Shown piece by piece: positions 6,901-41,013 of a stretch of DNA of 48,750 nt. The notes under the pieces were generated by a model that did not search any database, was not told where the DNA came from, and saw only the letters and a list, made by a program, of their open reading frames with translations. Source of the DNA: an uncultured Clostridia bacterium (GTDB taxonomy: Bacteria; Bacillota; Clostridia; Lutisporales; Lutisporaceae). A program made the position numbers and the translations under genes. The number at the start of each line of letters is the position of its first letter. The stretch's first letter is position 1. The stretch is from contig CALGKJ010000049.1 of NCBI GenBank assembly GCA_937930535.1, positions 1-48,750 on the forward strand, read 5' to 3'.

Positions 6901-8801
6901 TTAACATCAGCACCTATTACGAATAATTTGCATATTTCTTCCGCTAATTCATTTGAATTATTTCTGGACATAATCAGCATATCAACTTTTTCGTCTGCTA
7001 ACTTGCTTATTTGTCTCTTTTCACTTTCGCCGATTTCATCAGGGTCTTTAACTTCTTTATTATCAACTACAACTTTATGTGTTCCATAGAATATATCTTT
7101 TTCAGATAAATCCTTGAACTCTGTATCGTTTACTTTTGCTATTTTATTTTTTAAGTCTTCTAAATCTTTTACAATAAATATAAGTCTGCTTGCATATTGT
7201 CCTCTGCCAGTATTGACGGTATAACAAGCATCTTGAATATCAAATTCAACACCTGTTTCAAGGAATGCTTTATAATTATTTACTAATTCCCTTAATACTT
7301 TATCGTTTCTTCCAGATAGCATCAATACATTAGGAATATCACTTGCATTATTATTTTGCTTCTTTAATTCTGGTGCTTCTTCAATTACAACATGGCAGTT
7401 AGTACCACTAAAGCCAAAGGAGCTGATCCCTGCTCTTCTTGGAGTGCTTTCCTTTACCCATGGTTTCAATCTATCATTTACATATACAGGAGACTCACCG
7501 AAATTTATAAAATGGTTTGGTTCATTGAAGTTTGAAGAAGGAAGCATAACATTATTTTTCAGAGACAGCACTACCTTCATCAAGGATGCTAATCCAGAGG
7601 CTGCAACTGTGTGACCGATATATCCTTTACTAGAACCGATACCGCAGAATTGGTTCTTGTTTGTGTGATGTCTAAAGGCACTGGTCATACCCTTTATTTC
7701 TATTGGGTCACCAAGGTTTGTTGCTGTTCCGTGGGCTTCTATGTAACTTATTGTTTCAGGATTTATTTGTGCATCCTTCCATGCATCTAATATAACTTGT
7801 TCCTGTGCAGCAGCACTTGGTGCAGTTATACCGTTAGAAGCACCATCATTATTTATTGCGCTTCCTTTTATAATTGCATGTATATTATCTCCATCCTCTA
7901 AGGCTTTACTTAGTGGTTTTAAGAATACAACTCCTACACCTTCGCCCCATACTGTTCCATTAGCTTTATCATCAAATGGTCTTGCAATAAAGTCTTCAGA
8001 TTCTACCATGCCTAAATCCATTATTGTTTTCTCACCTTCAGGAGGTATAGCCGCAGAATATGAAACATGAATTCCTCCGGCAATTGCCATTTTGCACTCA
8101 TTGTTTCTTAATGCTTTACATGCCATATGAAGTGAAACCAAACCCGAGGAGCAAGCTGTATCAAGCATTAAGCTTGGACCGCTTAAGTTGAATATGTATG
8201 AAAGACGGCTTGCTAATATGCCAGCCCAAGATCCTGTTAGATGCATTGGATCTTTTTTAGTAATATGCTTATACAATGTAACTACTGTATTATCTCTGCC
8301 TACAAATACGCCTGTGTTTGTTCCATATATTTTTTCTCCGCCATAACCTGCATCTTCAATAGCTTCCCATGCTGTTTCAAGGAATATTCTATGGGCAGGC
8401 TCTATATATTTTGCTTCTCTGGGCGGAATCCCAAAGAAACCTCCATCAAACTTATCTATTCCATCCTTTAGAAATCCCGACTTAAAGTACCTTACATTCT
8501 CACGGGATATTGGATAACCAAGCATTATTTCCTGATAAAAAGGTATATCCAGCAAATGGTCACCATCTTGTATACGCTGTTCATCGTAGTCTCTAATGCA
8601 ATTCTTTTTATTTATTAAAACGTCCCAATATTCGTTCAGGTTGCTTGAGTCAGCATACTTTCCGCTCATACCTATAATTGCTATATCAGTTTCGACGTTG
8701 ACGCCTTTAGATAGCAGCTCTCTAAGCATCAATTCAGCTTCTTTATGATCCAGCTTCTTAGTTGCAACCTGTTCTAAGACATATTTTTTTATTCTTTCCA
8801 T
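3948..8801 (-). CDS. trans-AT PKS module: KS-DH-KR-ACP
   Basis: A 1617-residue single-module polyketide synthase. The KS has a full catalytic set (C217 in DTACSSG, H357 in EAHGTAT, H397 in YIGH). A post-KS linker ending in a PVYPLEK-type motif replaces the AT domain, as expected of trans-AT enzymes. The dehydratase has HIFLGNYLMPG and the Asp of HPAQLDNAMN. The ketoreductase has the NADPH loop GGTGGLG and the Ser/Tyr/Asn set (FSSMS, DYTAANSYLD). Its AGD motif retains the key Asp of B-type KRs. The C-terminal ACP has MGGDSILA. Expected chemistry is one malonyl extension followed by reduction and dehydration to an enoyl thioester. The start overlaps the end of the upstream PKS gene by 13 bp, so the two are translationally coupled. 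Extender units should come from the acyltransferase at 13702-14955. Confidence 0.93.
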   Translation of the reverse strand: MERIKKYVLEQVATKKLDHKEAELMLRELLSKGVNVETDIAIIGMSGKYADSSNLNEYWDVLINKKNCIRDYDEQRIQDGDHLLDIPFYQEIMLGYPISRENVRYFKSGFLKDGIDKFDGGFFGIPPREAKYIEPAHRIFLETAWEAIEDAGYGGEKIYGTNTGVFVGRDNTVVTLYKHITKKDPMHLTGSWAGILASRLSYIFNLSGPSLMLDTACSSGLVSLHMACKALRNNECKMAIAGGIHVSYSAAIPPEGEKTIMDLGMVESEDFIARPFDDKANGTVWGEGVGVVFLKPLSKALEDGDNIHAIIKGSAINNDGASNGITAPSAAAQEQVILDAWKDAQINPETISYIEAHGTATNLGDPIEIKGMTSAFRHHTNKNQFCGIGSSKGYIGHTVAASGLASLMKVVLSLKNNVMLPSSNFNEPNHFINFGESPVYVNDRLKPWVKESTPRRAGISSFGFSGTNCHVVIEEAPELKKQNNNASDIPNVLMLSGRNDKVLRELVNNYKAFLETGVEFDIQDACYTVNTGRGQYASRLIFIVKDLEDLKNKIAKVNDTEFKDLSEKDIFYGTHKVVVDNKEVKDPDEIGESEKRQISKLADEKVDMLIMSRNNSNELAEEICKLFVIGADVKWDKLYVGQKRRRVSLPVYPLEKLRVWAEPMISSYKDALISNKKEYKHPLLDRCIVDTFDSAVFSTIVSVDTHWVLKEHIFLGNYLMPGIAYLEIAREACSKVYTDCKLELKDVIFPVPLIVEEKEVKEIHTIVRKKQGYLEFSITSKINSTGFEGDDVWVVHAEGKVNRLDEAECPQTDIQEIFSRCSGTIPPDDFVVPGKKHIEMNFIFGLRWQNIFKRSHGEVEELVELKLKDECLGDTEEFVLHPAQLDNAMNATLLHIKYETYLPFSYRSLKVHAPLTGHIYSVIKRKNELNTGLETISFDVIMIDKDGKVLVEVEHYTIKKVNASEMENIKSRLANRNAFYGIKWAEKQAADITQHQITGCTVVFKGNAALSNKVYGSIKDICKDIIEVSLGDSYNKNDNNKFTIRLVKEDLEKLFDEIKERKITKIVHMLSLSDEAEIVDMEKLNSSQQAGVQSLFHMIKAVLSSKIKGNIDIAIISDNVNQVTGNETNIKPHNASLLGLSRVIEQEYSNLKCRSIDIDEFTNSYDIVYELMLEGSTKTVAFRNGKRYIAELDRIKVDLKVENRIEVRQNGVYAITGGTGGLGLEIAKYLAEKNNTNIILINRSKFPESSEWDDILTQESNPRLCSKIQAIREIQEMGSNVVCVSGDMTDADEADKIISNIRKNYGSINGIVHCAGLAGDGFIINKDEKVFNSVLEPKVKGTWILDNAAKQDDLDFFVLFSSMSTLHNFAGQGDYTAANSYLDSYAAYRNKQGKRTIAINWPGWKETGMAADHNKVSDEADDMLLFKSIPTVRAIESFDTILNSGLTNLAPGDINYRILSESPEQFSFELSQQMQKAIARKMSQAGGANNAKLGMKEMKEISIKGKGDGTYNETEQVIARIFAGILGMDEIDVYVSFHEMGGDSILATHLVKEIDRVYPGVVDITDIFTYSSVERMAKYINEKTGVIKVEEVIEQSETKQEEENLKDMFESMLQDEA

Positions 8802-11800
8802 ACTATGTCCCCCTCTGTATTTAATAAATCACTAGCGTCGCTTGCCGCAATCTCACCACGGGCTAATTTTTCCAAAAGCTCAGCTATGTCTAGCTTTTCG
8901 CCTCTTTCCTTTTCGATTTCACTTTCTTTTCTTTGCTTTTGTTCCAAATAATTAGCCATGCTATATATATTGGTATAAGTAAAAATGTCAGTTATATCGA
9001 TCTGATTTGGGTATGCCTTTTCCATTTCATTTAACAGCTTGGTTGCTAATATAGAATCTCCGCCCATATCATTAAAGGTATGGTAAATATCTATTTCCTC
9101 CATACCTAATACCATTGCCCAAACTTCAGCTACTTTCTTTTCGGCTTCTGTTAAATCCAATATGTCCTTTCCCTTTATGACTACTTTAACATCATTAATC
9201 AGCTCTAAAGGCTTGTCTTTTTTATCAATACTTATAACGTTATCCATTTTATTCTTAATATCCTCTGATAAATGGAAGTATAGATTGTTCCTTTGAAGCT
9301 TTAGCTCTTCATAGTCAATTTCACCTATAACTGCCCAATTTATCCCTTTACTCATTATTTCTTCAAAAGCTTTAATTGCCATCGAAGTTCCAATCGGTTT
9401 AAATACATTCTTTTTAAGATGAGCTCCAAAATCTACAGCCATGCCTGTATCCTTCCATGCAGCCCAATTGATTGTAGTACTAGGTTTTCCTTTTTTATTT
9501 CTATAAAGTGTAAATGAATCTAAATATGAATTTGCAGCAGTATAATCACTTTGTCCCGCTTCAGACAAAATAGAATTTATTGATGAAAACAATATGAAAA
9601 AGTCAAGATTTTCATTTTCAGTTAGTTTGTCAAGAATCCAAGCACCATCAATTTTGGGTGCTAATACATTGTTAAAGGTTTCACATTCTTTTCTTATTAT
9701 GAATCCGTCTCCTGCAACACCGGCACTATGAATAACTCCATCAATATTTTTAAAATCCTGCTTAACGCTATCAATGACTGTTTTCATTTCATAGTATTTG
9801 GATACATCTGCGTTAAATGTTCGTACTTGAGAACCTTGGCTCTCAATATTCATTATGGCTTGAATTCGCTTCTTATCCTTATTTTGCTTACTGCTGTTTA
9901 TTATATTGAACCATTCTTCTCTTGCAGGCATTGGAGTACGGTTTATAAAAATAAGATTAACCTTATTTTTGCGGGCTAGATAATTAGCCATTTCTAAACC
10001 TATTCCCCCTAAACCTCCCGTGATTATATAAGTGCCGCCTTCTTTTATATTGAACTGATTTTCTGTTGCAGCTTCATTTGAAGCCTTAGAAACTTCCTTA
10101 ACATAGCTTATTCCATTTCTAAAAGCAGTTAGGTAGTTGTCTCCATCCTTTAGTACGACACTTATTATATCTTCTGCTGAAGTATTTTCATCAATATCCA
10201 TGCATATACACTTAATATTCGAATACTCCTGACCAACTACCTTACCAACACCGAAAAGTGCTGCACCATAAGGATTAATGAGGTTTTCTTCTTTATTAAC
10301 CTCATAAACATTATTAGAAATAAGAGCCATGTCAATATTATTTTTAAGCTTTGCTGCTAATATTGCTTTGGTTAAAAAGAATATACTTTCTGCGCTTTTT
10401 CTTTTCAACTCTTGATGCTCATATATTTCTTTTGGCTCTGTTTTATTGTTTAAAGTCATTAGATGAAAAATCAAAGATGGATTTTGAGCCTTAATTGCTT
10501 CCATTAACATTATGTAATCTTCTTCTGATCCATTTATTATAAATTTTTCATGGTCAATTTTTTCAAAGCATGTGCCCATCTGCACTTGTATTACATGCTT
10601 AATGCTTTGTTTCAGATAATTTATTAAATTATCTCCTACACCTGATTCATCTTTAAATACAACTGCACAGCTTCTCTCTTTTAAGCCGTTTATTTTTTCT
10701 GTTTTTCTTTGTGTCCATGTTATTGTATGGATGTATTCTTCCTTATGAGAATTTTTATGACCGCCAAATATGTTCTCATTAACCTTCTTTATTGCATAAT
10801 CCTCTATGTCAATTAATACATTTCCAGCTAAATCTGTTATTTTTACATCAAAAGTAATAGTTTCATTACTGTTTATGCTTTTATGTTTTCTTTTTAAATA
10901 GCTGTAAAACTTCTTAGGCACTGATCCGTATATTTTCATTGACTTGTAGGTTAATGGTAGATAGAATCCATCTCCAAGCTCTTTATTTATTGGGTTAACT
11001 GCGTTATCCATAAGTGCCGGATGCATTGCATAAGAATTGATATCGTCCTCATATGCTGATGGAAGCTCTAAATTAACAAGTACTTCATCTTCTCCATAGA
11101 ATAATTCTTTAATATTTCTCCATCTTGGTCCAACAGTTATGGCAAAGTTTTGAGTTTTGTAATATTCATCAGCTCCTTTTGTCCTGACAGCATTCTTCTT
11201 GATTTCTGGAATATTAATTCGTGGAATTGATATTCCAGGAATATTAATGCTTTGAGCTGATTCATTCATTACGGGGAATACTTTACCTTCCGTGTGCTTA
11301 ATCCATTCTGATCCATTTTCAGCTTTTGTTACAATGTTAAACTCCATGTGTCCATCCAGATGCTTTATAATTATTTGAGCCTCTTTCGGGCTGTCTTCTT
11401 TAACTGCCAAAGGCGATATAAACATTACATTTCTAAGTTCCATTGGAATATTAGGGTAATGCTTTTCAGCTATCTTCCTGATCATTTCTAAGTAAGTAGT
11501 TCCAGGTACAACATATTCACCGCTTACTATATGCTCGCTTAATACCCAGTGTTTATCTAAATCAAAATTAGTTACATATATTTCAATTCCGAAGGTATCT
11601 GTTAAACATGCATCAATTAAAGGATGTTTCGTATTGCTTGCAGCTTTACTACTTTGATGCCTATTTGTTTTCTTGGATTCTACCCAGCATCTTTTCTTCA
11701 TAAATGGATAGACAGGAAGATTTATTTTTGCAGGTTTTGCACCGAAGAACATTTTCTCCCATTCAATATCTGCACCTTTTACGAACAGTTGACATATGTC

Positions 11801-13609
11801 TTTTATTATATTTTCGTTATCATCATTTTTTAGTTCTGTTATTTTAGCTTTTGCCGTTAAGCTTAATTGCTTTTTCTCATTCTCTGTAATTTCAGTTTCT
11901 GCTTTATATTGCTTTTGATCATTTACTATTGTGTGTTCTTGATAATATGTATTTTGCTCTTCTGTAGTTTCAAAGCCTTTTACAGACAGCTTCTGTAGTT
12001 TAGCTTTTAGTTCATCTATGTTTTCAGCCATAATCACTAATCTATAGTTATAATGCATGCGTCCTGTTGAAGCAGTGTAGCACATGCTTTCAAAATCTAT
12101 TTGCGGATTTTTATTTATAAATTCTATATACTTATATATTAAGTCTCTTAGGCCTTCTTTGTACTTAACTGACAGCGGAAATACAAATTTATTGTTTATT
12201 TGCTTACTGCAAGTTATTTCAGATTCCGGGGCTTCTTCTAAAACAACATGGCAATTTGTACCAGCTAATCCAAAGGAGCTGATACCACATCTTCTTGGAA
12301 ATCCATTTGTATTCCATTCTGTAGTTTTATCATTAATGAAAACTGGTGACTCTATAAAATTAATTTTCTTATTAGGATTCTTGAAGTGAAGGTTTTGAGG
12401 TATCTTCTTGTTTTTAAGACATAAAATAGCTTTAATAAGTCCAGCAATTCCCGCGGCATGATCCAGATGTCCTATATTTGTTTTAACAGCACCAATAGCA
12501 CAAAATTGCTTTTTATTTGTATAATTTCTAAAGGCTTTCTCTATTCCGCTGATTTCTATTGGATCACCAAGCTTTGTTCCTGTACCATGAGCTTCGATAT
12601 AGGTTATTGTTTCAGGGTCAATGGCTGCATCCTTCCAAGCTCTAAGAATTACATCTTCTTGAGCTGCGGGATTTGGGGCAGTCAGACCATTTGAGCTTCC
12701 ATCCTGATTTACAGCACTGCCTTTGATTACTGCATAAATATAATCTCCATCATCTAATGCTCTGTTTAGTGGTTTTAGAAGTACTGCACCGACGCCTTCT
12801 CCCATACCAGTGCCATCAGAGCTGTCATCAAAGGTTCTCGCTCTTTCTATTGAGGATTCAATGCCTATTCCCTTTAATCTTGGATCTCTGATGGGCATAA
12901 GATTTACTTTTACACCGCCGGCTATAGCCATATCACATTCGCCGTTTCGTATACTTTGGCATGCCATGTGAACCGCAACAAGAGCTGAAGAGCAAGCAGT
13001 GTCTATAACAATGCTGGGTCCTTTCAAATCCAATAAATAAGATATTCTGCTTGCAATTATAGATTTGATATTTCCTGGAAGTGCAATATCCGCAGATGAA
13101 GCATCCGCAGATTGAATGTATTTCTTATATTCTTCACCAAAATCACTGCTATGACCTAAAAAAACACCTGTTCTTGTGGATTTAATCCTTTTGCCCATAT
13201 AACCTGCATCTTCTAATGCTATCCAGGCACTTTCAAGAAAAAGCCTCTGATTAGGATCCATTAAGCTTGCTTCTTTAGGCGATAAAGAGAACAGAGTATG
13301 GTCAAACTTATCTATTTCTTTTAAATAGCCGCTTTCTATAAACTCTACACCCTCTTCTTCAATAGTCTTGCCATTTATACTTTCGAAGAAGTATTCTGCA
13401 TCTGCTTTTCTATTTTCTGGTACACTACTGATTAAGTCTTTTCCTGCTTCCAGCTCATTCCAGAATTTTTCTATATTATCTGCACCTGCAAGCTTTGCAG
13501 ATATACCAATAATCGCCATATCCTTTGCAGAAATATCCTTTATCTTAACAACAGGACCACTTGCTTCTGTAAGATTTATTCCTTTTAAATTAAACAATTT
13601 ATTTGTCAT
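8789..13609 (-). CDS. trans-AT PKS module: KS-DH-KR-ACP
   Basis: A 1606-residue module with the same domain order as the following gene. The KS keeps C206 (DTACSSA), H341 (EAHGTGT) and H381 (NIGH). The DH has HIVSGEYVVPG (H693) and D868 in HPALMDNAVN. The KR has GGLGGIG and DYTAANSYLD and carries the B-type Asp in AGD. The ACP has MGGDSILA. It is probably the first PKS module, accepting the glycyl chain from the NRPS protein and making the first double bond. Between the DH hotdog halves (residues about 788-804) is a small repetitive stretch with IP every five or six residues, which is not part of the catalytic core. The RBS (AAAGGTG) is well spaced. The gene lies 92 bp after the acyltransferase gene, and that gap holds a hairpin. 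Confidence 0.93.
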   Translation of the reverse strand: MTNKLFNLKGINLTEASGPVVKIKDISAKDMAIIGISAKLAGADNIEKFWNELEAGKDLISSVPENRKADAEYFFESINGKTIEEEGVEFIESGYLKEIDKFDHTLFSLSPKEASLMDPNQRLFLESAWIALEDAGYMGKRIKSTRTGVFLGHSSDFGEEYKKYIQSADASSADIALPGNIKSIIASRISYLLDLKGPSIVIDTACSSALVAVHMACQSIRNGECDMAIAGGVKVNLMPIRDPRLKGIGIESSIERARTFDDSSDGTGMGEGVGAVLLKPLNRALDDGDYIYAVIKGSAVNQDGSSNGLTAPNPAAQEDVILRAWKDAAIDPETITYIEAHGTGTKLGDPIEISGIEKAFRNYTNKKQFCAIGAVKTNIGHLDHAAGIAGLIKAILCLKNKKIPQNLHFKNPNKKINFIESPVFINDKTTEWNTNGFPRRCGISSFGLAGTNCHVVLEEAPESEITCSKQINNKFVFPLSVKYKEGLRDLIYKYIEFINKNPQIDFESMCYTASTGRMHYNYRLVIMAENIDELKAKLQKLSVKGFETTEEQNTYYQEHTIVNDQKQYKAETEITENEKKQLSLTAKAKITELKNDDNENIIKDICQLFVKGADIEWEKMFFGAKPAKINLPVYPFMKKRCWVESKKTNRHQSSKAASNTKHPLIDACLTDTFGIEIYVTNFDLDKHWVLSEHIVSGEYVVPGTTYLEMIRKIAEKHYPNIPMELRNVMFISPLAVKEDSPKEAQIIIKHLDGHMEFNIVTKAENGSEWIKHTEGKVFPVMNESAQSINIPGISIPRINIPEIKKNAVRTKGADEYYKTQNFAITVGPRWRNIKELFYGEDEVLVNLELPSAYEDDINSYAMHPALMDNAVNPINKELGDGFYLPLTYKSMKIYGSVPKKFYSYLKRKHKSINSNETITFDVKITDLAGNVLIDIEDYAIKKVNENIFGGHKNSHKEEYIHTITWTQRKTEKINGLKERSCAVVFKDESGVGDNLINYLKQSIKHVIQVQMGTCFEKIDHEKFIINGSEEDYIMLMEAIKAQNPSLIFHLMTLNNKTEPKEIYEHQELKRKSAESIFFLTKAILAAKLKNNIDMALISNNVYEVNKEENLINPYGAALFGVGKVVGQEYSNIKCICMDIDENTSAEDIISVVLKDGDNYLTAFRNGISYVKEVSKASNEAATENQFNIKEGGTYIITGGLGGIGLEMANYLARKNKVNLIFINRTPMPAREEWFNIINSSKQNKDKKRIQAIMNIESQGSQVRTFNADVSKYYEMKTVIDSVKQDFKNIDGVIHSAGVAGDGFIIRKECETFNNVLAPKIDGAWILDKLTENENLDFFILFSSINSILSEAGQSDYTAANSYLDSFTLYRNKKGKPSTTINWAAWKDTGMAVDFGAHLKKNVFKPIGTSMAIKAFEEIMSKGINWAVIGEIDYEELKLQRNNLYFHLSEDIKNKMDNVISIDKKDKPLELINDVKVVIKGKDILDLTEAEKKVAEVWAMVLGMEEIDIYHTFNDMGGDSILATKLLNEMEKAYPNQIDITDIFTYTNIYSMANYLEQKQRKESEIEKERGEKLDIAELLEKLARGEIAASDASDLLNTEGDIVWKE

Positions 13610-13701: not shown

Positions 13702-14955
13702 TTACTTAATAGAGAAATTTGGAAAAAGTGAGCGTGTTCCTGTTTCATCAAAAACTTGATTAAATCTTTCAATTTGTTCTTCTGCTGGTGTTTTCTTTGT
13801 TATAAATACGCTGCTTAGCATGTCTAAAGCCATAGTCATTTGCTCTATGGTAGGAGCTTGTCCCGACATTTCTATTTCCTCTTGAAGCTTTTGTATATTT
13901 CTATAAGGTTCAATAACACCTTTTTGGTATTCTTCATTGTTCCAATTTCTGTTTTGAGTACATACTGCAATAGCCAAGCATTTAGTAATAACAGTTGGTG
14001 CATTTCCCTTTTTCTTATTTTCAGCTTCCCATTCACTTTTTAATAAATTGATATCCTCTTCCTTATCAAAAGCTAAAGTCATTATTTCAGGCGCATTTTT
14101 TTTCATAAGGTTTCTTAAAACAGCTTGTGGTCCCAATTCAATTGCCAGCTCTATTTTATTAGCTGTCAAAAACTCCATTGACTCCTGCCATCTAACCGGC
14201 TGAACCATCTGCATTGTCAGGTTTTCAATAATACTTTCATGGCTTGTGTATGGTAAAGCAGTTACATTCGATATAACAGGGTATTTAAGAGGATTATAAT
14301 TATATTTTTTCAGCTCTTCAGCAAGCTTATCTGCTGCTGGCTGCATAAGTGGGCTATGGAAAGGAGCACTGACATTAAGAGGCACTACCCTTGCACCTTT
14401 CTCTGCAAGTATATTGCCTACTTCTGTAACAGCAGTCTTATGACCTGAAATAACCACTTGAACAGGCGAATTATAATTTGAAATTACAGCTATATTATCT
14501 GGATTTTTATATCTGCTGCATACTTCTTCAACTAAGGCTGTGTCGATATTGCTTATTGCTGCCATTGCACCGCTGTCTGAAGCGGCTTCTTGCATAAATT
14601 GTCCCCTTGCTCTAACAATCTTAACTGCATCTGTGAAACCGATTGCATTAACACAAGTTAAAGCAGAAAATTCACCTAAGCTATGACCTGCGCAAAAGGA
14701 CGGTATCATCCCATACTCTTGCATATAAACTTTATATGCAGCTACGCTTGCAGTTAATATAGCCGGCTGTGTATTTTCTGTTCTAGTCAATTCCTGAAAG
14801 TTTCCTTCTATACACAATTTCTTTAAATCAAATCCTAGTGCATCTCCGGCTTCCTCAAATATTCTATTTGCTATATCGTAGTTCTCACACAGAACTCTGC
14901 CCATACCTATATACTGGGAACCTTGACCTGGGAATATTAGTGCTATCTTTTTCAT
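13702..14955 (-). CDS. Free-standing malonyl-CoA:ACP acyltransferase (trans-AT)
   Basis: A 417-residue protein that loads extender units onto the ACPs of the AT-less PKS modules. The FabD-type fold begins with FPGQGSQ. The nucleophile is S92 in GHSLGEF and the second catalytic residue is H200 in APFHSPLM; a PFHS-type motif is usual for malonyl specificity. The AT core ends near residue 290. The remaining 120 or so residues form a helical extension seen in several trans-acting ATs. There is no enoyl reductase or second AT domain. It is encoded between the NRPS gene and the PKS genes, separated from the NRPS gene by 152 bp that contain a double stem-loop repeat. Confidence 0.93.
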   Translation of the reverse strand: MKKIALIFPGQGSQYIGMGRVLCENYDIANRIFEEAGDALGFDLKKLCIEGNFQELTRTENTQPAILTASVAAYKVYMQEYGMIPSFCAGHSLGEFSALTCVNAIGFTDAVKIVRARGQFMQEAASDSGAMAAISNIDTALVEEVCSRYKNPDNIAVISNYNSPVQVVISGHKTAVTEVGNILAEKGARVVPLNVSAPFHSPLMQPAADKLAEELKKYNYNPLKYPVISNVTALPYTSHESIIENLTMQMVQPVRWQESMEFLTANKIELAIELGPQAVLRNLMKKNAPEIMTLAFDKEEDINLLKSEWEAENKKKGNAPTVITKCLAIAVCTQNRNWNNEEYQKGVIEPYRNIQKLQEEIEMSGQAPTIEQMTMALDMLSSVFITKKTPAEEQIERFNQVFDETGTRSLFPNFSIK

Positions 14956-15008: not shown

Positions 15009-15113
15009 AATAGGGAAGCAACCATAAAACATAACTTATTCATGGGCTGCATATTGCTTCCCTTCTAGGTTTTTAGCTTAGTATAATTTATTTTTAAGCT
15101 AAAAACCCTATAG
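15009..15113. repeat. Double stem-loop repeat, type 2
   Basis: Two consecutive stem-loops fill the gap between the NRPS and acyltransferase genes. One pairs GGGAAGCAAC at 15013 onward with ATTGCTTCCC ending near 15063. The other pairs AGGTTTTTAGCTTA with TAAGCTAAAAACCC (15067-15109). The TATAG end overlaps the TAG stop codon of the NRPS gene. A close copy is at 28630-28732, a half copy at 21821-21870 and a diverged copy at 46975-47083. The architecture and length match the type 1 elements at 25313 and 27700, although the stems differ in sequence. In the operon, these hairpins would be transcribed as RNA. Confidence 0.75.
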
Positions 15114-18100
15114 TTCAATAAGCTTTAAAAACCCGTAAATTATACCTTCTACTTTGTCTTTCCTAAGTCTTCTGAAGTTATATTCACAAGTGATTTCAAC
15201 CTTTTCTATATCCTCACTTACTTTAAATGCTACATCATAAGCATTTAAAGTTACATCCTCTAAATGATGTTTATTACCCATAAAGGGTATTATAGCGCTT
15301 TCATCTCTTTCAATTATGATTCTATCAATATTTTTTATTGGATATGTATCATCAGTATTAGTGTTATTTATTTTTTCGCTTACTTGCTTATAAAACATTG
15401 GGATATCAGTTAATTGACTTAAATCAATTTTTATAGGTCTTATGCTTTCCTTATTAGGCAGTAAAGCATGAACAGTAACTTCATTTCTCTGACTTATCTC
15501 ACCAAGTAAATAAATGTACATTGCCAGCAGAATATCAAATACCTCAACAGAACAGTTATATGCGGAGGCTTTTACTTTTTCATGTATAGTCATAGGGATG
15601 TCAAACTTTAGTACTGAATAGTTATCAATGATTTCATTGTTACAAATAAAATACTCCTTAGGAAGTAACAAAGGACACATGTCAATATTTCTCCAATCGT
15701 TTTGCTCCTCAGCTTCTAAATATGCTGCCAGCTTTGAAATTGTAGAATAATTGAATAAATCTGATACGCTGACTTTACCTGGGTATTCCTTTTCAAGCCG
15801 CTCACTAAGTGCAACCAAAAGCATAGAATTTCCACCCAGCTCAAAGAAGCTGTCATTTATTCCTATTGCATCACGCTTCAATATATATTTCCAAATATCT
15901 ACAAGTTTCTTTTCTAGTAAAGTCTCGGCATCTCTAAATTCTACTTCCAGCTTTGGTCTGCTGTAATCAGGCTCTGGCAGGGCATTTCTATCTGTTTTTC
16001 CATTTGGAGTCTGGGGAAACTCTTTAAGTTGTACAAATGCCTCTGGAATCATGTATGCTGGTAAGTGTTTAAGCAGATGGTTTCTGATTTCGCTAACTGT
16101 TATTTCTGCTTCTGAGATATAATAACCTGCTAAATATTGACTATTGGTTTCAGGATTTGTTTTAACTACTACAACACTATCCTTGATATTTTTACAGCTT
16201 GACATAGAGCTCTCTATTTCACCCAGCTCTATTCTATGTCCTCTTACTTTAACTTGATGATCTACCCTTCCCAAATGCTCCAGCTCTCCATCTGAAAGCC
16301 AGCGTGCTAAATCACCTGTTCTATACATTCGCTGCTCATGAAAAGCTTTATAAATTTCATCACAGTACTCGGGAATAAATCTCTCATTTGTTAATTCAGG
16401 TTTGTTTAAATATCCCCTGGCTAGTCCGTCACCTGCTATGCATAATTCTCCTATAGCACCAATTGGCTGCAATTTATTATACTTATTGATAATATAAATT
16501 CTAGTATTAGCAATTGGTTTACCAATTGTAACTTTTTCTTTATCAGTCATTTCCTTAACCGTTGACCAAACAGTTGTTTCTGTAGGACCATATACATTAA
16601 ATATTCTAGCTGTCAGCTTGGATCTGACTTCGTTGTAGATTGATTCTGGAAGAGGCTCCCCCCCTAATAGTAATACCTTCACTTTGTCTAATCTGGAAAA
16701 ATTTACTCCACCCTCCTTTAATAATTGCATTCTTGAAGGAGTAATTTGCAGAACCTCTACTTCACTTTTTACTATTAAGTCGCAAAGCAGCTTTGAATCC
16801 TTTTGCTGTTTCTCATCTGCTATTACTATCTTCATTCCTTTTGATAAGGGTAAAAAGGTTTCTAACACAAATATATCAAAAGAAATTGTGGTTAAAGCTA
16901 AAATAGTGCCTTGTTTCGGAAAATCAATTTTGTCAGTCATACCTATAATAAAATTATTCACAGTTCTATGCTCGATCATTACCCCTTTAGGTTTTCCAGT
17001 GGACCCAGAGGTATATATTACATATGCCAGATCATCAGGCTTATTTATATTTTCTAAATTAACAGGACAGCTATTCAAGCTGTCAATTGAGTCAATATCA
17101 AATAAATCTGCTTGTTCAAAGGTATTTGTTTCAATGAATTCACTTTGAGATACTAATATCTTGGAGCCTGAATCCTCGAACATATATTTGATTCTATCAA
17201 TTGGATAGTCTGGATCTAAAGGTAAATACGCCCCTCCAGCCTTTAAAATCCCCAACATAGCAATCAGCATTTCTGGTCTTCGCTTTACTAATATTCCTAT
17301 TATGCTATTTTGCTTTACCCCTAGCTCTCTTAATTTAACTGCTAATCTGTTTGATTTTTCGTTTAGCTCTGTATAGGTAAGCTTAGTATCATAAAATTGG
17401 ATTGCAATGTTATATGGGGTTTTTGATACTTGTTCTTCAAACAACTGGTGAATTGTTTTTTCCTTGGAATATTGCTTATATGTATTATTAAATTCAAATA
17501 ATAGCTGTTTTTTTTCTGATTGTGTATAAATTTCAATATCTGCAATTCTTTTATCAGTATTATTTATTACATTATTTGCAAGATTAATATAATTAGCTGC
17601 AAAACGTTCTATTGTTTCTCTCTTAAATAATTTTGTACAATATTCAAAGCTGAAAATTAATTCTTCATCATTTTCAAATACTTCTAAGGTTAAATCAAAT
17701 TTTGATATGCTATTTCTAAAGTTTATTTGATTTATAGACATTTCTTCTACTTGGAAGTTCAGTCTGTCGGCATTTAACATATTAAACATAACATCAAATA
17801 ATGGGTTTCTTGATAAATCTCTATTTAGCTTTAGCTTATCTATCAATAGCTCAAATTGATACTCTTGATTATCGTAAGCCTCAAAAGCGTGCTTCTTTAC
17901 TTCGATTAAAAACTCTTCAAAGCTCTTTTCACCACATGGTTTATTTCTTAATATAATTGTGTTAACAAACATACCTATCATTTCTTCAATATTTGCATGC
18001 ATTCTTCCTGAAACAGGTGTAGCAATAATAACGTCTTCCTGTTCAGAATATTTTGACAAAAGAATGTAATATAAAGATAATAGGGTAATGTAAAGTGTTG

Positions 18101-21100
18101 CACCTTTTGAAAAAGAAATAGACTTTAGCTGTGCAGCAAGCTCTTTATCAGCTTTAAAATATACTCTATCACCTTCAAAGCTCTGTTTTGCCGGTCTTGA
18201 AAAGTCTAAAGGCAGGTTTAATGTAGGAATTTCACCTTTTAATAATTCTACCCAGTATTTTTCTTTTGCATCAAGAACATTATTCTGCAAAAGGTTATGA
18301 TGCCATACAGCATAATCACGATATTGAAGTATGGGTAATGAGGTAGTCTTACTATGATAGATATCAAATAACTCTTTTATAAGCAGTTCAACAGATATGC
18401 CATCAGCAATTATGTGATGGATATCAAATGCAAGCAAAAACTTATGCTCGTCAGCTTTTATAACGCCTAATCTTAGTAAAGGCAGCTTATTTAGCTTAAA
18501 TGGTTTTATAAAATTCTGCATAATAACTTCAATATCCTTACTAGCATTTTCAAGATGTTGAAGCTTTATATAATTATCATTATGAACTACTTGTATTGCA
18601 TGTCCATCTTTTATTTCAAAAGCAGTACGTAATATTTCATACTTCATAACAATTGTATTTAACGATTTTTCCAGCTTATCTAAATCTACATTTCCATTTA
18701 TAGATAATAATATGGGAATATTATAACTCGTGCTTGTATCTTCAATTTTATCTAGCAGCATAATCCGCTTCTGTGCTGGAGCTGCCGGATAGAAATTTGA
18801 ATCAGAAACATGGTTAATAGTGAAAAAGGTTTCTTTGTTAGAATTATTAATATACTTAGATAGTGCTTTTATTTTAGGCAGGCTGAGAATTTTGCTTATT
18901 GAAACTTGTACCCCAAGCCTTTTAAATATTTTTGAAGCTATAACTGCTGCTTTTAAAGAATGTCCTCCCAGCTCAAAGAAATTGTCGTTTATTCCAATAC
19001 CGCTAATTTTCAGAACTTCTTCCCATATCTTTATAAGTACTTCTTCAGTTTCATTATTTGGAGCTTCATATATTGCTTTATTGATTATTGCTTCCGATAT
19101 CTCATAAATCGGAAGCTTCAATAGCATTGAACCAGAGTAATATTTTAACGGTAACAAATATTTAAAATGCAGCATTTGCTCTTGGCTTTGAATATTTATT
19201 TCCCATCCATATTCAAGCTGTGATTTTTTATCTTCCTTTGATAAATAGTATATGCTATAGGGCATAAACTCTGATTTTAGTGCAAATGCAACATTGGCGA
19301 AATCGTCATACCTATTTGATAATGTTGAATAAGGACTATTCCGTGAATTTTCTTTAATCATACCTTCAAAGGGTTCTATACCATCACATTTATAACAAAT
19401 TTGATTAATGTATAAGCTTCCTAGTGTATATGGCGAATCATCTATTGTGTTGACATCCATATTAATAAGAAGTTCAATTTTACTTGAGTTTCTCTTGCTA
19501 TATGTTATTGTTAATACTTTTTTTACATTATCAAAATGTCTGTCTTCTTCAATGTAACCAAGCATATTGTAAAATTTTATTGCGTTATCTTTATCAGTGA
19601 CAATTAATCTTATTGTATTTAATTTATATGTATTTTCATTACTATTAAAATCAAAATCCTTATCTTGAATTAGTTCAAACACACCCATGCCTTTAACAAA
19701 TATAAACATAACTTCTTTATAATCAAAAAGAACTGCTGGTGTAGGTTCTTTGATGATTTCCCAAGATATTTGGTTTTCATCAAGACTGCTTATAAATTCA
19801 TTGAAATCCTTAACTCTATAACAAATATGGTAGGGCTTGTTAAGCTTAATATCAACACCCTTTGATATCCTTTTATTTTCATGGAAGTTAACTAGTTCAA
19901 TAGTGTCGAATTCTTTTCTGCTGCACAAGGATAGATATGCATTTTGTAATGGATCAAAAACTGTATCAGTACATGAGTATTCAATTTTGTTATAATACTG
20001 TTTAATAGCTTCTAAGTCGCTGACTTCAACTCCTATGTGATCTAATTCACACGCTAGAGCATTGTTGTCTGCTGTTTTATTAAGCTTTACAGGCTGAACC
20101 CCGTAATAGCACTCTATAAAGCTTAACTCATGTTCTATATCCGCCGTATTTATTTCATAAAGAGTACTATTGCTTCTTTCTTCAACTATGTAAAAATTAT
20201 TCTTTTCCAGATATGCTTTTACCTGTTGATTCTTATTCGTTGGAATAAATACAGCTTTAATTTTTTTAAATCCGTTCTCTCTGCAATACTTGCCTAACTC
20301 TACTAATATGGCATCTTCTATTCTTCTTCCTAACACTCTACAGCTTAAAAGAAATGTATCTATAAAAATACTATCATCCATTTCTTTCATTATGACTGCA
20401 CCAGTTAAGCCATATTCACCAAACTTATCAAGCACCTGTATAGTCCAGCATTTAGTATCTGAATGGCTTATCAGCTCCAGCAAATCATCCTCAGTTCTCC
20501 GTATTGTACTTAAATTAAACTGATTTGTTCTTTGTGTCAGCTGTGAAACTCTCATTAAGGTTTCGTTATTAATTTCATTTATATATATTTTAGGGCTGAG
20601 TTCTTTTAAAAAATCCTCTAAAGTCTTACTTGAACTTTGTATTTCTTTTCTTAGCTTTTCTGTTTGGTATGATTTGGTTCTTACTCTGTCTTCCTCAGTA
20701 ATTTTCTCTTTATCAAATGCCCATATATGCTTTAAATAATACGGTAACTGTTTTATATTCTCAGGAAGCTGGATAGTTAATACTTCGGGTCTATTTTGCG
20801 TTACTTCATGACACTCTACTAAGCTGTCATCTATAAAAATAAAACTATCTATACCTAAGTTCAATTCTGCTGCTAACTGCAATAAATTTCCCGACTTTGG
20901 TTCCCAGTTAATTTGCCATGCAGTTAAATGATGTTTCTTTAAAAGCATATTAGGGTTATTATCAAACACTTCCCACACGTCTGCTTCATTGTTTTTACTG
21001 CACAATACTATAAGCATACCTTCATCATGCTTTTGAATTATGTACTTTTGTAGCTCTAAATACGGTTCATCTATAACCACACCTAAAGCACCGTCTTCTC

Positions 21101-21770
21101 CGCAAATCCCCTTCCATAAGGTATTATCACAATCTAATGCTATAACCTTAAATGGATTGGACATTATGGAAACTATCTTTCTTGCTATCAGGGTGCCAGC
21201 AGCGGCATAATATTCATCAGTAAAGGGTATATGCCCTTCTTTGTCCGTTATAGGATCAAATATTTCTTGTATACTGTATAGCTCAGCAGCTTCATTAAAA
21301 TCTAAAACAGTTACATTCTTTAAGTCTTTTAAGTCTTTGATCCATCTTTTGTTTAGTTCTTTAATGTATTTAATAATTTGTTCGCTTAGACCAAGGCTTG
21401 TTGAAACAGGAAAAACTCCAGTAATACACGGTGTTTCCTTTGTTTTTATAATTTCAGTTAGTTTTTTATAATTATTTTCGATAGCCTCAAGCTTTTCCTC
21501 TTCACTTGCTTCTAAATCCCTAATCCAATCTTCAAATCTTACCAACATTAAGTTTAGATCTGTATTTTTACATATAATGCTGTCTGGATCTAAAAGAGAT
21601 TGAAAAACTTGATTATACGGAGCAAAATTTATTTTGATTTTGTATCCGAATTTTTCACTCCACCAAGCTACATACTCTTGGATTGGGTCAGCAACAAAGG
21701 TGGCTGCAATTGCCAATACTTTATAATTATCTATTGAATTATCAGCTTGCTTTATATTATTTTTATTCAT
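15108..21770 (-). CDS. Loading/NRPS protein: FkbH-VOC-VOC'-PCP-C-A(Gly)-PCP-half C
   Basis: A 2220-residue protein that should start the assembly line. Residues 1-545 are an FkbH-type domain: HAD motif DCDNTLW (213-219) with its usual GNAT-like C-terminal lobe. This family loads a glyceryl unit from 1,3-bisphosphoglycerate onto a carrier. Residues 576-705 are a VOC (glyoxalase-fold) domain with a full set of metal ligands (H578, E625, H648, E699). Residues 716-800 resemble a second VOC lobe without ligands. PCP1 has GGHS (S938). A condensation domain (990-1430) has HHIIAD. The adenylation domain (1440-1935) gives the ten-residue code D-I-L-Q-L-G-V-V-W-K, matching known glycine codes. PCP2 has S1982. 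Residues 2030-2220 look like the C-terminal lobe of a condensation domain without the HHxxxD lobe. Residues 878-903 resemble the tail of an adenylation domain. Predicted output is a hydroxyacyl-glycyl thioester handed to the first KS. The TAG stop lies in a repeat. Confidence 0.9.
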   Translation of the reverse strand: MNKNNIKQADNSIDNYKVLAIAATFVADPIQEYVAWWSEKFGYKIKINFAPYNQVFQSLLDPDSIICKNTDLNLMLVRFEDWIRDLEASEEEKLEAIENNYKKLTEIIKTKETPCITGVFPVSTSLGLSEQIIKYIKELNKRWIKDLKDLKNVTVLDFNEAAELYSIQEIFDPITDKEGHIPFTDEYYAAAGTLIARKIVSIMSNPFKVIALDCDNTLWKGICGEDGALGVVIDEPYLELQKYIIQKHDEGMLIVLCSKNNEADVWEVFDNNPNMLLKKHHLTAWQINWEPKSGNLLQLAAELNLGIDSFIFIDDSLVECHEVTQNRPEVLTIQLPENIKQLPYYLKHIWAFDKEKITEEDRVRTKSYQTEKLRKEIQSSSKTLEDFLKELSPKIYINEINNETLMRVSQLTQRTNQFNLSTIRRTEDDLLELISHSDTKCWTIQVLDKFGEYGLTGAVIMKEMDDSIFIDTFLLSCRVLGRRIEDAILVELGKYCRENGFKKIKAVFIPTNKNQQVKAYLEKNNFYIVEERSNSTLYEINTADIEHELSFIECYYGVQPVKLNKTADNNALACELDHIGVEVSDLEAIKQYYNKIEYSCTDTVFDPLQNAYLSLCSRKEFDTIELVNFHENKRISKGVDIKLNKPYHICYRVKDFNEFISSLDENQISWEIIKEPTPAVLFDYKEVMFIFVKGMGVFELIQDKDFDFNSNENTYKLNTIRLIVTDKDNAIKFYNMLGYIEEDRHFDNVKKVLTITYSKRNSSKIELLINMDVNTIDDSPYTLGSLYINQICYKCDGIEPFEGMIKENSRNSPYSTLSNRYDDFANVAFALKSEFMPYSIYYLSKEDKKSQLEYGWEINIQSQEQMLHFKYLLPLKYYSGSMLLKLPIYEISEAIINKAIYEAPNNETEEVLIKIWEEVLKISGIGINDNFFELGGHSLKAAVIASKIFKRLGVQVSISKILSLPKIKALSKYINNSNKETFFTINHVSDSNFYPAAPAQKRIMLLDKIEDTSTSYNIPILLSINGNVDLDKLEKSLNTIVMKYEILRTAFEIKDGHAIQVVHNDNYIKLQHLENASKDIEVIMQNFIKPFKLNKLPLLRLGVIKADEHKFLLAFDIHHIIADGISVELLIKELFDIYHSKTTSLPILQYRDYAVWHHNLLQNNVLDAKEKYWVELLKGEIPTLNLPLDFSRPAKQSFEGDRVYFKADKELAAQLKSISFSKGATLYITLLSLYYILLSKYSEQEDVIIATPVSGRMHANIEEMIGMFVNTIILRNKPCGEKSFEEFLIEVKKHAFEAYDNQEYQFELLIDKLKLNRDLSRNPLFDVMFNMLNADRLNFQVEEMSINQINFRNSISKFDLTLEVFENDEELIFSFEYCTKLFKRETIERFAANYINLANNVINNTDKRIADIEIYTQSEKKQLLFEFNNTYKQYSKEKTIHQLFEEQVSKTPYNIAIQFYDTKLTYTELNEKSNRLAVKLRELGVKQNSIIGILVKRRPEMLIAMLGILKAGGAYLPLDPDYPIDRIKYMFEDSGSKILVSQSEFIETNTFEQADLFDIDSIDSLNSCPVNLENINKPDDLAYVIYTSGSTGKPKGVMIEHRTVNNFIIGMTDKIDFPKQGTILALTTISFDIFVLETFLPLSKGMKIVIADEKQQKDSKLLCDLIVKSEVEVLQITPSRMQLLKEGGVNFSRLDKVKVLLLGGEPLPESIYNEVRSKLTARIFNVYGPTETTVWSTVKEMTDKEKVTIGKPIANTRIYIINKYNKLQPIGAIGELCIAGDGLARGYLNKPELTNERFIPEYCDEIYKAFHEQRMYRTGDLARWLSDGELEHLGRVDHQVKVRGHRIELGEIESSMSSCKNIKDSVVVVKTNPETNSQYLAGYYISEAEITVSEIRNHLLKHLPAYMIPEAFVQLKEFPQTPNGKTDRNALPEPDYSRPKLEVEFRDAETLLEKKLVDIWKYILKRDAIGINDSFFELGGNSMLLVALSERLEKEYPGKVSVSDLFNYSTISKLAAYLEAEEQNDWRNIDMCPLLLPKEYFICNNEIIDNYSVLKFDIPMTIHEKVKASAYNCSVEVFDILLAMYIYLLGEISQRNEVTVHALLPNKESIRPIKIDLSQLTDIPMFYKQVSEKINNTNTDDTYPIKNIDRIIIERDESAIIPFMGNKHHLEDVTLNAYDVAFKVSEDIEKVEITCEYNFRRLRKDKVEGIIYGFLKLIEL

Positions 21771-21880: not shown

Positions 21881-22582
21881 TTAAAATCCTATTAAAGTTT
21901 GATTAATAATTTCCACTATTTCTTCTTCATAATCGTGAATAAAGAAATGACCTCCTTCAAAAGGATAGATTCTACAATCTTCAGTAGTTAGCTTTCTCCA
22001 TTCACTGATTGTTGAGCTTGGTGCGTGAAAATCGGTTTTGCCATGGAATACTGAAATAGGACATTTAAAAGGCTCAAACACCCTATTATAAGGGTAGTCG
22101 TATTCCTCCATTATTTTTATATCTGATCTCAATACTGGCAAAAACAAGTCCAATAACTCTTTATTATCAAAAAAAGTAGCAGGAGTTCCCTCATATCTTA
22201 ATATTTCTTTCTTAAATTCCTCAAGAGGAAGATTGTGAGTAGGTTTTGTCTTAACCCTAGCTTGAGGAGCTGTACCCCCAGAAACAAAAACATGTACAGG
22301 ACTGTTATGCTTCTCTATAATTTTAATACCTAATTCATACACAAGCAGACTTCCCATACTGTGTCCAAAAAAAGCATAGGGTTCGTTATTTAGTTCACCC
22401 TTTATTAAATTGTACAAATCATCTACTGCTTCATTAATTGAATTATACAGTGGTTTGCTGTATCTCATTCCTCTTCCGGCTAACTCCATTGGATATAAAT
22501 TTATTGAATTATGCAGGTACTTATTCCATCTTGTATAGTTGGAAGCAGAACCACCCGCATAAGGAATACAAAATAGTTTCAT
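21881..22582 (-). CDS. Type II thioesterase
   Basis: A 233-residue alpha/beta-hydrolase of the GrsT/SrfAD kind. It has S75 in GHSMGS, an acidic residue in HGKTD and the His of GGHFF. Such enzymes release wrongly primed or stalled acyl groups from carrier domains and are encoded with NRPS/PKS genes. The longer frame starts at a TTG at 22600, but the ATG at 22582 is preferred because AAAGGAG lies just upstream with normal spacing and the protein then begins MKLFCIPYAGG, as family members do. It is the first gene of the biosynthetic operon and follows a long leader. The next gene is 110 bp away. Confidence 0.93.
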   Translation of the reverse strand: MKLFCIPYAGGSASNYTRWNKYLHNSINLYPMELAGRGMRYSKPLYNSINEAVDDLYNLIKGELNNEPYAFFGHSMGSLLVYELGIKIIEKHNSPVHVFVSGGTAPQARVKTKPTHNLPLEEFKKEILRYEGTPATFFDNKELLDLFLPVLRSDIKIMEEYDYPYNRVFEPFKCPISVFHGKTDFHAPSSTISEWRKLTTEDCRIYPFEGGHFFIHDYEEEIVEIINQTLIGF

Positions 22583-22655
22583 GCTGCATCTCCTTTGCAA
22601 TAATGATAATTATAATAATGATAATAGAAATTTCCATGAAATTGTATTTATGTAT

Positions 22656-22700
22656 AAAAAATAAGAAGCACTAAATTCTTATAAAAAAGCGCTTCTTAAT
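22656..22700 (-). terminator. Leader terminator before the biosynthetic operon
   Basis: In the transcribed direction AAGAAGC (22691-22697) pairs with GCTTCTT (22663-22669), followed at once by ATTTTTTAT. This is a standard intrinsic terminator shape with an AT-rich extension of the stem. It sits about 75 nt upstream of the thioesterase start, where it could block entry into the operon unless RNA polymerase has been modified. Confidence 0.6.
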
Positions 22701-22740
22701 TATTTTGTATATGATGGTTAAAGCATAGCTCTCCCCATTC

Positions 22741-22759
22741 ATGTACAATGATCGTACAC
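22741..22759 (-). promoter_or_regulatory. Small hairpin in the operon leader
   Basis: TGTAC at 22742-22746 and GTACA at 22754-22758 form a perfect 5-bp stem with a 7-nt loop, extendable by a G-U pair. It lies between the UUCG hairpin and the leader terminator. It may be part of the antitermination region or a protein-binding site. Its role is unknown. Confidence 0.35.
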
Positions 22760-22847
22760 TACAACTATTAAAATATGTCCCCTTTGCTTCTCCAACGTGC
22801 CGAAACAACGACTAGATTTACTCAGGTTACTATATGTTGCCAAATTT

Positions 22848-22863
22848 AAATGCCGAAGCATTT
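22848..22863 (-). promoter_or_regulatory. UUCG-tetraloop hairpin, candidate LoaP recognition element
   Basis: On the minus-strand transcript AAATGC and GCATTT form a 6-bp stem closed by C(UUCG)G, an unusually stable tetraloop. It lies inside the long leader, about 250 nt after the predicted start point and upstream of the leader terminator. LoaP proteins are known to bind a small leader hairpin, so this is the best candidate here, but the assignment is an inference. A TTGACG with a weak -10 overlaps it and was judged less likely than the promoter at 23123-23151. Confidence 0.45.
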
Positions 22864-23122
22864 TTCGTCAATAGTCAGTAATCTATTTGCGGAAATAACA
22901 TGATTTTCAAATTTAGATTATTTCTCTAACAGTACAATGCGTAAATATAACAGACATTGTTTTATAGGTTTTTCATGAAAATTTGAGAAATATTCAAATT
23001 ATGAAATGTTACAATTGCCAAACTCTTAATGTAAGTACGAAACGTATTATGTTGTAAGCAATTTGGAAAGCTATAAACATTGACACATTCCATCATAATT
23101 CGACAAATTTTTGCTTATTCCT

Positions 23123-23151
23123 ATTGTATAATATCGAGTAGTGTAAGTCAA
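23123..23151 (-). promoter_or_regulatory. Likely sigma-A promoter of the biosynthetic operon
   Basis: On the minus strand, TTGACT (23146-23151) and TACAAT (23123-23128) are separated by exactly 17 bp. The predicted start point is near 23116. It is the best promoter-like match in the gap between loaP and the operon. The same -10 hexamer, TACAAT, occurs in the strong minus-strand promoter at 45250-45278. Confidence 0.65.
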
Positions 23152-23196
23152 TTATTGCAGGCGATAAAATCACGGCAAAAGTATGAATATATATAC

Positions 23197-23292
23197 TATA
23201 GAGAAACATCTTCAAAATTAAATTTTTCCAGTTGTTTCTTACAAAGAAATTAGCAACTCTTAACAAAAAGCTTTTTGAGTTGCTAATCTATA
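23197..23292. repeat. Double stem-loop repeat, type 1 (copy A)
   Basis: About 96 bp from TATAGAGAAAC to CTAATCTATA. The second stem is perfect: TTAGCAACTC (23250-23259) pairs with GAGTTGCTAA (23277-23286). The first is GAGAAACATCTT with a GTTGTTTCTT partner. It matches the elements at 25313-25416 and 27700-27803. It lies between the operon promoter and the loaP promoter, so neither predicted transcript contains it. Confidence 0.75.
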
Positions 23293-23316
23293 ACAAAGCT
23301 ATCCTTGTCAATTACA

Positions 23317-23344
23317 TTGTCATAAAGTAAAATAGTACTATAAT
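23317..23344 (+). promoter_or_regulatory. Likely loaP promoter
   Basis: TTGTCA (23317-23322) and TATAAT (23339-23344) are separated by 16 bp. The start point would be near 23351, giving loaP a leader of under 20 nt that begins just before the AAAGGGG ribosome-binding site at 23353-23359. Confidence 0.65.
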
Positions 23345-23367
23345 CAATATGTAAAGGGGTAATAAAG

Positions 23368-23877
23368 ATGGATTGGTATGCTGTCTTTGTAGAATCAGGA
23401 AAAGAGGAGTTCGTTCAAAAGCAGCTTCAAGTTCATTTCGATGATTCAGTTTTGCGCTCAATAATACCCAAAAGAAAACTAACCGAAAGACGTGAAGGCA
23501 GAATTTTTCATGTTACAAGAAAAATGTTTCCTAGTTATTTACTAATACAAACAAATATGAATGTTGAAAAATACTATATCATAAAGAATATTCCTAAATT
23601 AATAAGAATATTAAACACCGATAGGTACTATTCGAAAATTGATAAAACAGAAATAGAAATTATTCTGAAGCTTATTGGCTTTAATGATACTGTGGAATAT
23701 TCTTCAATATATATAGAGAACTCGAATGTCAGAGTTGTTTCAGGTCCATTGCAAGGATTTGAAGGAATTATAAAAAAAATAGATAAAAGGAAAAAGCGCG
23801 CTAAAGTTGTACTTTCACTTATGGGAGAAGAAAGAACAGTTGATTTGGGTATTGAAATTTTAAATAAGCTTGAATAG
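23368..23877 (+). CDS. loaP: LoaP-type NusG paralogue, transcription antiterminator
   Basis: A 169-residue protein with the two domains of NusG: an NGN domain (residues 1 to about 95, starting WYAVFVESGKEE) that binds RNA polymerase, and a KOW domain (about 118-165, VRVVSGPLQGFEGII). It is not the housekeeping NusG, since it stands alone beside a biosynthetic operon rather than between secE and rplK. LoaP proteins act by processive antitermination on long polyketide and other biosynthetic operons in Firmicutes. Here the gene is divergent from the trans-AT PKS/NRPS operon, the expected target. The start ATG has an AAAGGGG site 8 bp upstream. A related NusG paralogue such as UpxY is less likely given the neighbourhood. 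Confidence 0.88.
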   Translation: MDWYAVFVESGKEEFVQKQLQVHFDDSVLRSIIPKRKLTERREGRIFHVTRKMFPSYLLIQTNMNVEKYYIIKNIPKLIRILNTDRYYSKIDKTEIEIILKLIGFNDTVEYSSIYIENSNVRVVSGPLQGFEGIIKKIDKRKKRAKVVLSLMGEERTVDLGIEILNKLE

Positions 23878-40265: not shown

Positions 40266-41003
40266 CTATTCCAGATATTTAAGCAAGTCCCCTACCAGCT
40301 CATGAACTCTTGTTGCAGGAGACATTTTAGATGGTATTTTCTCGGTGTACATGCCATAAAGAACTTCAGCCCTTTTTATGGCTTGTTTTACATAGGGATA
40401 CAATATATCAAATATATTGGGCAGATTCTTTTCATATGGAATAAACTCTTTCAATTTTTCTTTATAGTCTTCTCTATGTACATCAGAATACATTGGTATA
40501 AAGTGCAGCAAGAACCATAGCTCTATACATTGATTAGACCATGCAACATGATATTGTGTAGATTCACTACTAAGCGCATCTGCTGCGAACTCAGTATTGT
40601 CAAAGTCATCTTTCGGGAAATCGTCTTTATCATATACCAGCCATACATGGCTATAGTGATTAGGATTTTCTTCAACGTACTTTTTAGCTCGTTCCAGTAA
40701 ATAAATAGTGTTTGTTCCTTCACCCTTTACGTCAATGCTGACCAATGTATTTGAATTATCCCTAACATCAATTCTATTATTATATCTTTCGTTAATCAAT
40801 CTTTTTAAGCCTTCAAAGTAGTTCGGCTCTGTCTTTTTGCCTTCGCAAACTATAAGATAGTATTGAGGTTGAATATTTCTTATGCCCTCTTTTCTCTTTT
40901 TCATTCCATACGCTTTATCTTTCTTTTTAAGTTCACTATGCTTAATATGAATATAAAGCTGCGTCTGCCGAGGGTCACTTACTGAGACTTGCTTTGTTTT
41001 CAT
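40266..41003 (-). CDS. rloB: RloB/AbiLii-like protein
   Basis: A 245-residue protein of the RloB family. It starts with a basic segment, then a CEGKKTEPNYF motif, an acidic WLVYDKDDF motif and NQCIELWFLLHF. The acidic residues resemble a TOPRIM-like nuclease core. RloB proteins are found next to RloA-type ATPases, as here, and the pair corresponds to the AbiL abortive-infection system. It would be the effector. It lies 59 bp after the ATPase gene with a hairpin in the gap and a weak ribosome-binding site, so its translation may be limited. Confidence 0.85.
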   Translation of the reverse strand: MKTKQVSVSDPRQTQLYIHIKHSELKKKDKAYGMKKRKEGIRNIQPQYYLIVCEGKKTEPNYFEGLKRLINERYNNRIDVRDNSNTLVSIDVKGEGTNTIYLLERAKKYVEENPNHYSHVWLVYDKDDFPKDDFDNTEFAADALSSESTQYHVAWSNQCIELWFLLHFIPMYSDVHREDYKEKLKEFIPYEKNLPNIFDILYPYVKQAIKRAEVLYGMYTEKIPSKMSPATRVHELVGDLLKYLE

Positions 41004-41013
41004 TGATTACTGA

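Follow-up and report, generated by a model that had tools for sequence, protein, structure and literature searches.

LoaP of Bacillus velezensis binds a leader hairpin of the UNCG type, which is required in vivo, and antagonises NusA, giving read-through of a NusA-dependent leader terminator (PMC12691694). The same paper describes a pause about half way from hairpin to terminator that is of moderate help to antitermination, and reports that removing the 10 nucleotides (nt) directly ahead of the hairpin of the difficidin (dfn) operon abolished antitermination, although the macrolactin (mln) leader has no similar sequence there. A crystal structure of LoaP with RNA was published in Structure in 2024 (cited in PMC12691694). 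The stretch of DNA analysed here, called the window, is an entire contig of 48,750 nt (CALGKJ010000049.1) within the 4.7-Mb genome of an uncultured Clostridia bacterium of the family Lutisporaceae. It carries a loaP gene and, divergent from it on the minus strand, a trans-acyltransferase (trans-AT) polyketide synthase (PKS)/nonribosomal peptide synthetase (NRPS) operon. Control of this operon by LoaP at a terminator in its leader is strongly supported by the sequence, because LoaP is identified at the family level, a LoaP-type hairpin (P1) in the leader covaries and is the genome's only convincing one, and an intrinsic terminator lies downstream of it. A pathway-specific LoaP antitermination switch is thus held to be highly probable; it would add a member to the LoaP class, with a hairpin that is known in kind.

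For comparison, loaP genes were gathered from Clostridia-class, phylum-wide and Bacilli genomes. P1 emerged without prior knowledge, from an enriched 9-mer and then as a covarying hairpin. In a word count of the intergenic stretches beside 44 loaP genes, the 9-mer TGTTTCGGC occurs at 9 loci versus 0.07 expected; its copy in the window is on the minus strand within 22792-22815. P1 (22789-22817, minus strand), CUAG(U)CGU(U)GU[UUCG]GC ACG UUGG, lies in the 5' leader and is a hairpin of the UNCG type. Its loop is U[UUCG]G, and one nucleotide bulges out of the stem two pairs below it; three pairs farther down, the copies of the Bacilli and of the window have another bulge. Both sides have changed in 8 of its 10 pairs; candidates were partly chosen by requiring three pairs, a requirement that does not touch the outer pairs or later hits. 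A covariance model of LoaP hairpins, R2, built from 27 sequences with the window left out, gives P1 32.7 bits (E 3.4e-7 in the window and 3.3e-5 in the whole genome), with the caution that the R2 alignment came from fitting to an earlier model, R1, which included the window. It is the only match in the genome with E < 0.1. The next genomic match, at C2:896-924 (18.7 bits, E 0.9), falls inside a coding frame on its antisense strand and is put down to chance.

The sequence-only reading had assigned the LoaP element elsewhere, to a C(UUCG)G hairpin at 22848-22863 (minus strand), 30 nt upstream of P1. That hairpin is indeed present in the leader and very stable, it has a UNCG tetraloop, and its core UGCUUCGGCA agrees with the P1 core at 9 of 10 bases; 0.8% of shuffled leaders contain a UUCG hairpin with 6 bp or more. 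However, it is without a bulge, reaches only 7.7 bits under R2 with filters off versus 32.7 for P1, and has no counterpart beside other loaP genes. It is rejected as the LoaP element, and the proposal that it is the LoaP-binding element or a second LoaP site is scarcely credible. What that reading had said of control at a leader terminator by LoaP is strongly supported, and the intrinsic terminator that it had placed before the first gene is present, whereas the hairpin through which it had control exerted was the wrong one, 22817-22789 being correct. Its leader architecture was without the two further elements described below, P0 and D2.

P1 goes with loaP. Among 391 Clostridia-class genomes, R2 (E up to 0.001) matches seven, and all seven carry LoaP, which is present in 63 of the 391; two of the seven (G062 and G302) lie outside the training of the model. 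All these matches are close to loaP, the farthest being that of the window itself, across the divergent promoters. P1 is likewise found in 26 of 29 Bacilli LoaP genomes, at many sites unused for training. By motif search, the examined operons that follow P1 are mostly trans-AT PKS or NRPS in the Bacilli, and several clostridial ones have no PKS/NRPS motifs and many genes of 300-500 residues. One locus, L154 (G949:C5:16204-16444), has a LoaP hairpin on each strand, set back to back with about 200 bp between them; a single LoaP might there drive two divergent operons.

P1 is enclosed by an outer helix, P0, formed by two complementary stretches, one just ahead of the hairpin and the other between the hairpin and a GGnCAUA block. 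In the window its strands are CCUGAGU (22820-22826, minus strand) and GCAAAGG (22781-22787, minus strand). P0 covaries across leaders, with pairs such as CCCUAAG/CUUAGGG, CCUAAC/GUUAGG, CCUAAU/AUUAGG, CUCUAGU/ACUAGGG, AUCAAAUAA/UUAUUUGAU and CUUAUC/GAUAAG, among others. This covariation is above all shuffles and every slid register, and in 2000 permutations that matched 5' parts with 3' parts taken from different leaders, none reached the observed complementarity. The RNAalifold prediction contains both P0 and P1. P0 could serve to present P1.

Directly after P1, and filling the gap to the terminator, comes a second domain of about 70 nt, D2 (22720-22788, minus strand). With P0 and P1 it makes up a larger RNA structure that is kept in LoaP-controlled operons of both Bacilli and Clostridia. 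Its blocks GGnCAUA, GUAGUGU, GAUGAA and GGnGAAGCUAUGCC recur past the hairpin in LoaP leaders. GUAGUGU and GAUGAA flank a stem, P3 (GUAGUGUAC...GUACAUGA, 22739-22762, minus strand), that covaries, includes the two column pairs with the best covariation in this stretch and is predicted unprompted by RNAalifold. A model of D2 only, R3, built from 19 leaders with the hairpin and the window excluded, gives the window 46.5 bits (E 1.9e-10). A weaker match at 9106-9008 (minus strand, like the operon), which falls within a PKS gene (20.6 bits, E 0.0015), is probably chance. D2 belongs to LoaP leaders: at E up to 0.001 it is present in 15 of 331 Clostridia-class genomes, 14 of which carry LoaP (two of the 15 gave training sequences), and 10 of 16 matches are within about 70 nt of a loaP gene. 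The remaining genome (L177, G149:C148) is 61% complete and without detected LoaP; a possible variant hairpin precedes its D2.

R3 also matches LoaP loci at which the hairpin model fails (L027, L033 and L042, and more weakly L026, L030 and L031). At L026, L027, L030, L031 and L033, D2 precedes loaP itself, and ahead of D2 stands a hairpin that keeps the stem and bulges but has a G-rich loop, e.g. GATAA-T-CGT-T-G-GGGGGT-C-ACG-TTATC. Across the family the P1 loop is UUUCGG in two LoaP groups and G-rich, with the same bulges, in a third. In that third group (L169, L174, L175, L176 and L182) the leader stands in front of loaP, and a G-rich loop replaces UUUCGG; this suggests that loaP is autoregulated and that the loop changed along with the LoaP group.

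Between P1 and the first gene lies the intrinsic terminator (22653-22698, minus strand), composed of a hairpin at 22698-22662 with an 11-bp stem and a 15-nt loop (-12.6 kcal/mol, pair probability 0.8-1.0) and a U tract at 22661-22653. When the 188-nt stretch was shuffled 1000 times with its dinucleotides preserved, no shuffle reached this score. A terminator scan that allows loops of 3-8 nt only therefore missed it. The terminator ends about 70 nt ahead of the likely ATG of the first operon gene at 22582, for which the sequence offers a Shine-Dalgarno motif, AAAGGAG, at 22596-22590 (minus strand).

Taken together, polymerase would start near 23116 and make a tripartite leader RNA of P0, P1 and D2, and by default the intrinsic terminator would stop most transcripts before the first gene. 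As the RNA emerges, LoaP from the divergent gene would bind P1, presented by P0. Next in the leader, before the terminator, comes D2, which would most likely pause polymerase or shape the exit channel so that P1-bound LoaP could load; LoaP would then ride with polymerase and antagonise NusA, letting polymerase pass the leader terminator and continue down the PKS/NRPS operon. The leader of the window may behave like the B. velezensis leaders, and the operon may be off by default, with the divergent pair as a self-contained switch. That the tripartite leader, with D2 as its pausing and LoaP-loading site, is general to LoaP-controlled operons is somewhat favoured.

The role of D2 within such a switch could be a different one. 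Those conserved blocks of D2 that do not belong to the covarying stem (GGnCAUA, GAUGAA, GGnGAAGCUAUG) could contact protein, and D2 might be a LoaP recognition surface, or else a translation or stability element, instead of a loading or pausing site; this reading is tentative and the less likely one. A leader with mainly LoaP-independent attenuation, by a small-molecule riboswitch or a leader-peptide attenuator, and a need for LoaP only at later points in the operon, would also account for a long, structured leader (z -2.55) with a terminator and for a D2 that is compact and conserved. Against it, no Rfam 15 family reaches its gathering score in the window or at eight other LoaP loci, and no plausible riboswitch family appears at lax thresholds (E up to 10). 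Moreover, D2 tracks LoaP genomes and not a metabolite pathway, with targets ranging from PKS/NRPS operons to operons without PKS/NRPS motifs. Such attenuation is very improbable, and the LoaP-dependent switch is preferred.

Several points weigh against this switch as drawn. P0 of the window is weak (CCU...GU / GC...AGG): 3+2 pairs flank an internal loop, GA/AA. The letters of a possible long-range CAUA/UAUG helix within D2 are conserved and show little covariation; this helix is not claimed. The identity of P1 with the proven dfn/mln hairpin would rest on the shared UNCG description and the association with LoaP. Finally, promoter-like sites in this AT-rich stretch are at chance density (18 versus 15.2 expected), and for this reason the operon transcription start near 23116 is plausible, not shown. 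The likely operon promoter, TTGACT-N17-TACAAT (23123-23151, minus strand), matches at 10 of 12 positions; the sequence-only reading had singled out these hexamers, which are present and not above chance in number, and its estimate of a leader of about 530 nt is borne out.

The likely loaP promoter, TTGTCA-N16-TATAAT (23317-23344, plus strand; 11 of 12 matches), is followed by a 5' untranslated region that, read from the sequence, is short and without a LoaP element. Between the divergent promoters, at 23249-23287, is a near-perfect palindrome (ATTAGCAACTC ... GAGTTGCTAAT) with 11-bp arms and AAAAAGCTTTTT inside, possibly an operator or a minus-strand hairpin.

The loaP gene (23368-23877, plus strand) encodes a specialised NusG paralogue of 169 residues, in keeping with the divergent NusG paralogue gene first noticed there. 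It scores 215.7 bits with NF033641 (antiterm_LoaP) against a curated cut-off of 125. By contrast, it stays far under the cut-offs for UpxY (57.2 of 100 bits) and RfaH (40.8 of 144.5 bits), and is also far below that for core NusG. It is the sole gene in the genome to pass NF033641; core NusG is encoded elsewhere, at 85 bits. Its closest solved structure is chain A of PDB 8f5g (E 7e-31), probably the entry for the LoaP-RNA crystal structure of Structure 2024; the two proteins are homologous over their whole length and clearly diverged in sequence. The best matches of the window LoaP are all Bacilli LoaPs (54-58% identity), versus 43% identity with a LoaP from a genome of its own family, and the phylogeny places it inside the Bacilli LoaP group (support 83/85). 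When genome contigs were scanned with one sequence, only Brevibacillus dissolubilis matched. Since the window LoaP groups with the Bacilli and the elements of that group are, as in the window, of the two-bulge type, loaP, leader and operon may have been acquired jointly from a Bacilli-like source. The divergent layout of loaP and operon is seen again in several Bacilli.

The operon itself starts at 22582 on the minus strand. Its first gene encodes a type II thioesterase (21881-22582, minus strand; PF00975, E 1.9e-38; start taken from the sequence). It is followed, all on the minus strand, by an NRPS (15108-21770) with condensation (C), adenylation and peptidyl carrier protein domains (C-A-PCP), a free-standing malonyl-CoA acyltransferase (13702-14955; TIGR00128, 319.6 bits, above cut-off) and three PKS or PKS-NRPS proteins without an acyltransferase (AT) domain (133-13609). 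The last three combine ketosynthase (KS), dehydratase (DH), ketoreductase (KR) and acyl carrier protein (ACP) domains as KS-DH-KR-ACP, KS-DH-KR-ACP and KS-ACP-C. The KS modules without AT, together with the free-standing AT, the thioesterase and the NRPS, make this a trans-AT PKS/NRPS operon, and domain searches thereby bear out the PKS/NRPS content proposed from the sequence. The contig end falls just past the last operon gene. A search of the operon for internal terminators with perfect stems of 8 bp or more, no fewer than 3 G-C pairs and 6 or more U found none. The N-terminal part of the first NRPS, about 990 residues, is without a strong Pfam match except for a glyoxalase-like stretch, and is possibly an unusual loading part. 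Away from the operon, at 40266-42310 (minus strand), an RloB-like protein adjoins an AAA_21 ATPase (putatively of AbiEii type), a possible phage-defence pair.

LoaP activates otherwise silent antibiotic operons, and a reliable description of its RNA target could help in finding and activating them. If the tripartite leader holds, it could be used as a genome-wide finder of LoaP regulons, and D2 offers a conserved candidate for the leader pause that can be mutated. The loop varies between LoaP groups and the stem and bulges are kept, so that coevolution of protein and RNA is directly testable by partner swaps.

Among known systems, RfaH with its ops element, UpxY, TaA and ActX are, like LoaP, NusG paralogues devoted to long operons; unlike them, LoaP acts through an RNA hairpin, where RfaH uses the ops element in DNA. 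Rfam leader RNAs such as EAR are cis-acting RNAs that work on the intrinsic terminators of long operons. The leader of the window would resemble them in this action and matches no Rfam 15 family at gathering score. The closest likeness is to dfn and mln of B. velezensis, which, in the available text of PMC12691694, share with the window a LoaP paralogue, a UNCG-type hairpin, a polyketide operon, a leader of several hundred nt and an intrinsic terminator before the first gene; unlike them, the operon of the window is a different PKS/NRPS. P0 and D2 appear neither in Rfam 15 nor in that available text, and part of them may already be described in the LoaP literature of 2017, 2021 and 2024. In dfn/mln, the 10-nt deletion and the pause site, as given there, fall where P0 and D2 would lie. 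A requirement for P0 pairing, not for sequence, could explain the effect of the dfn deletion despite the dissimilar mln leader, and D2, by its position, is a conserved candidate for the leader pause.
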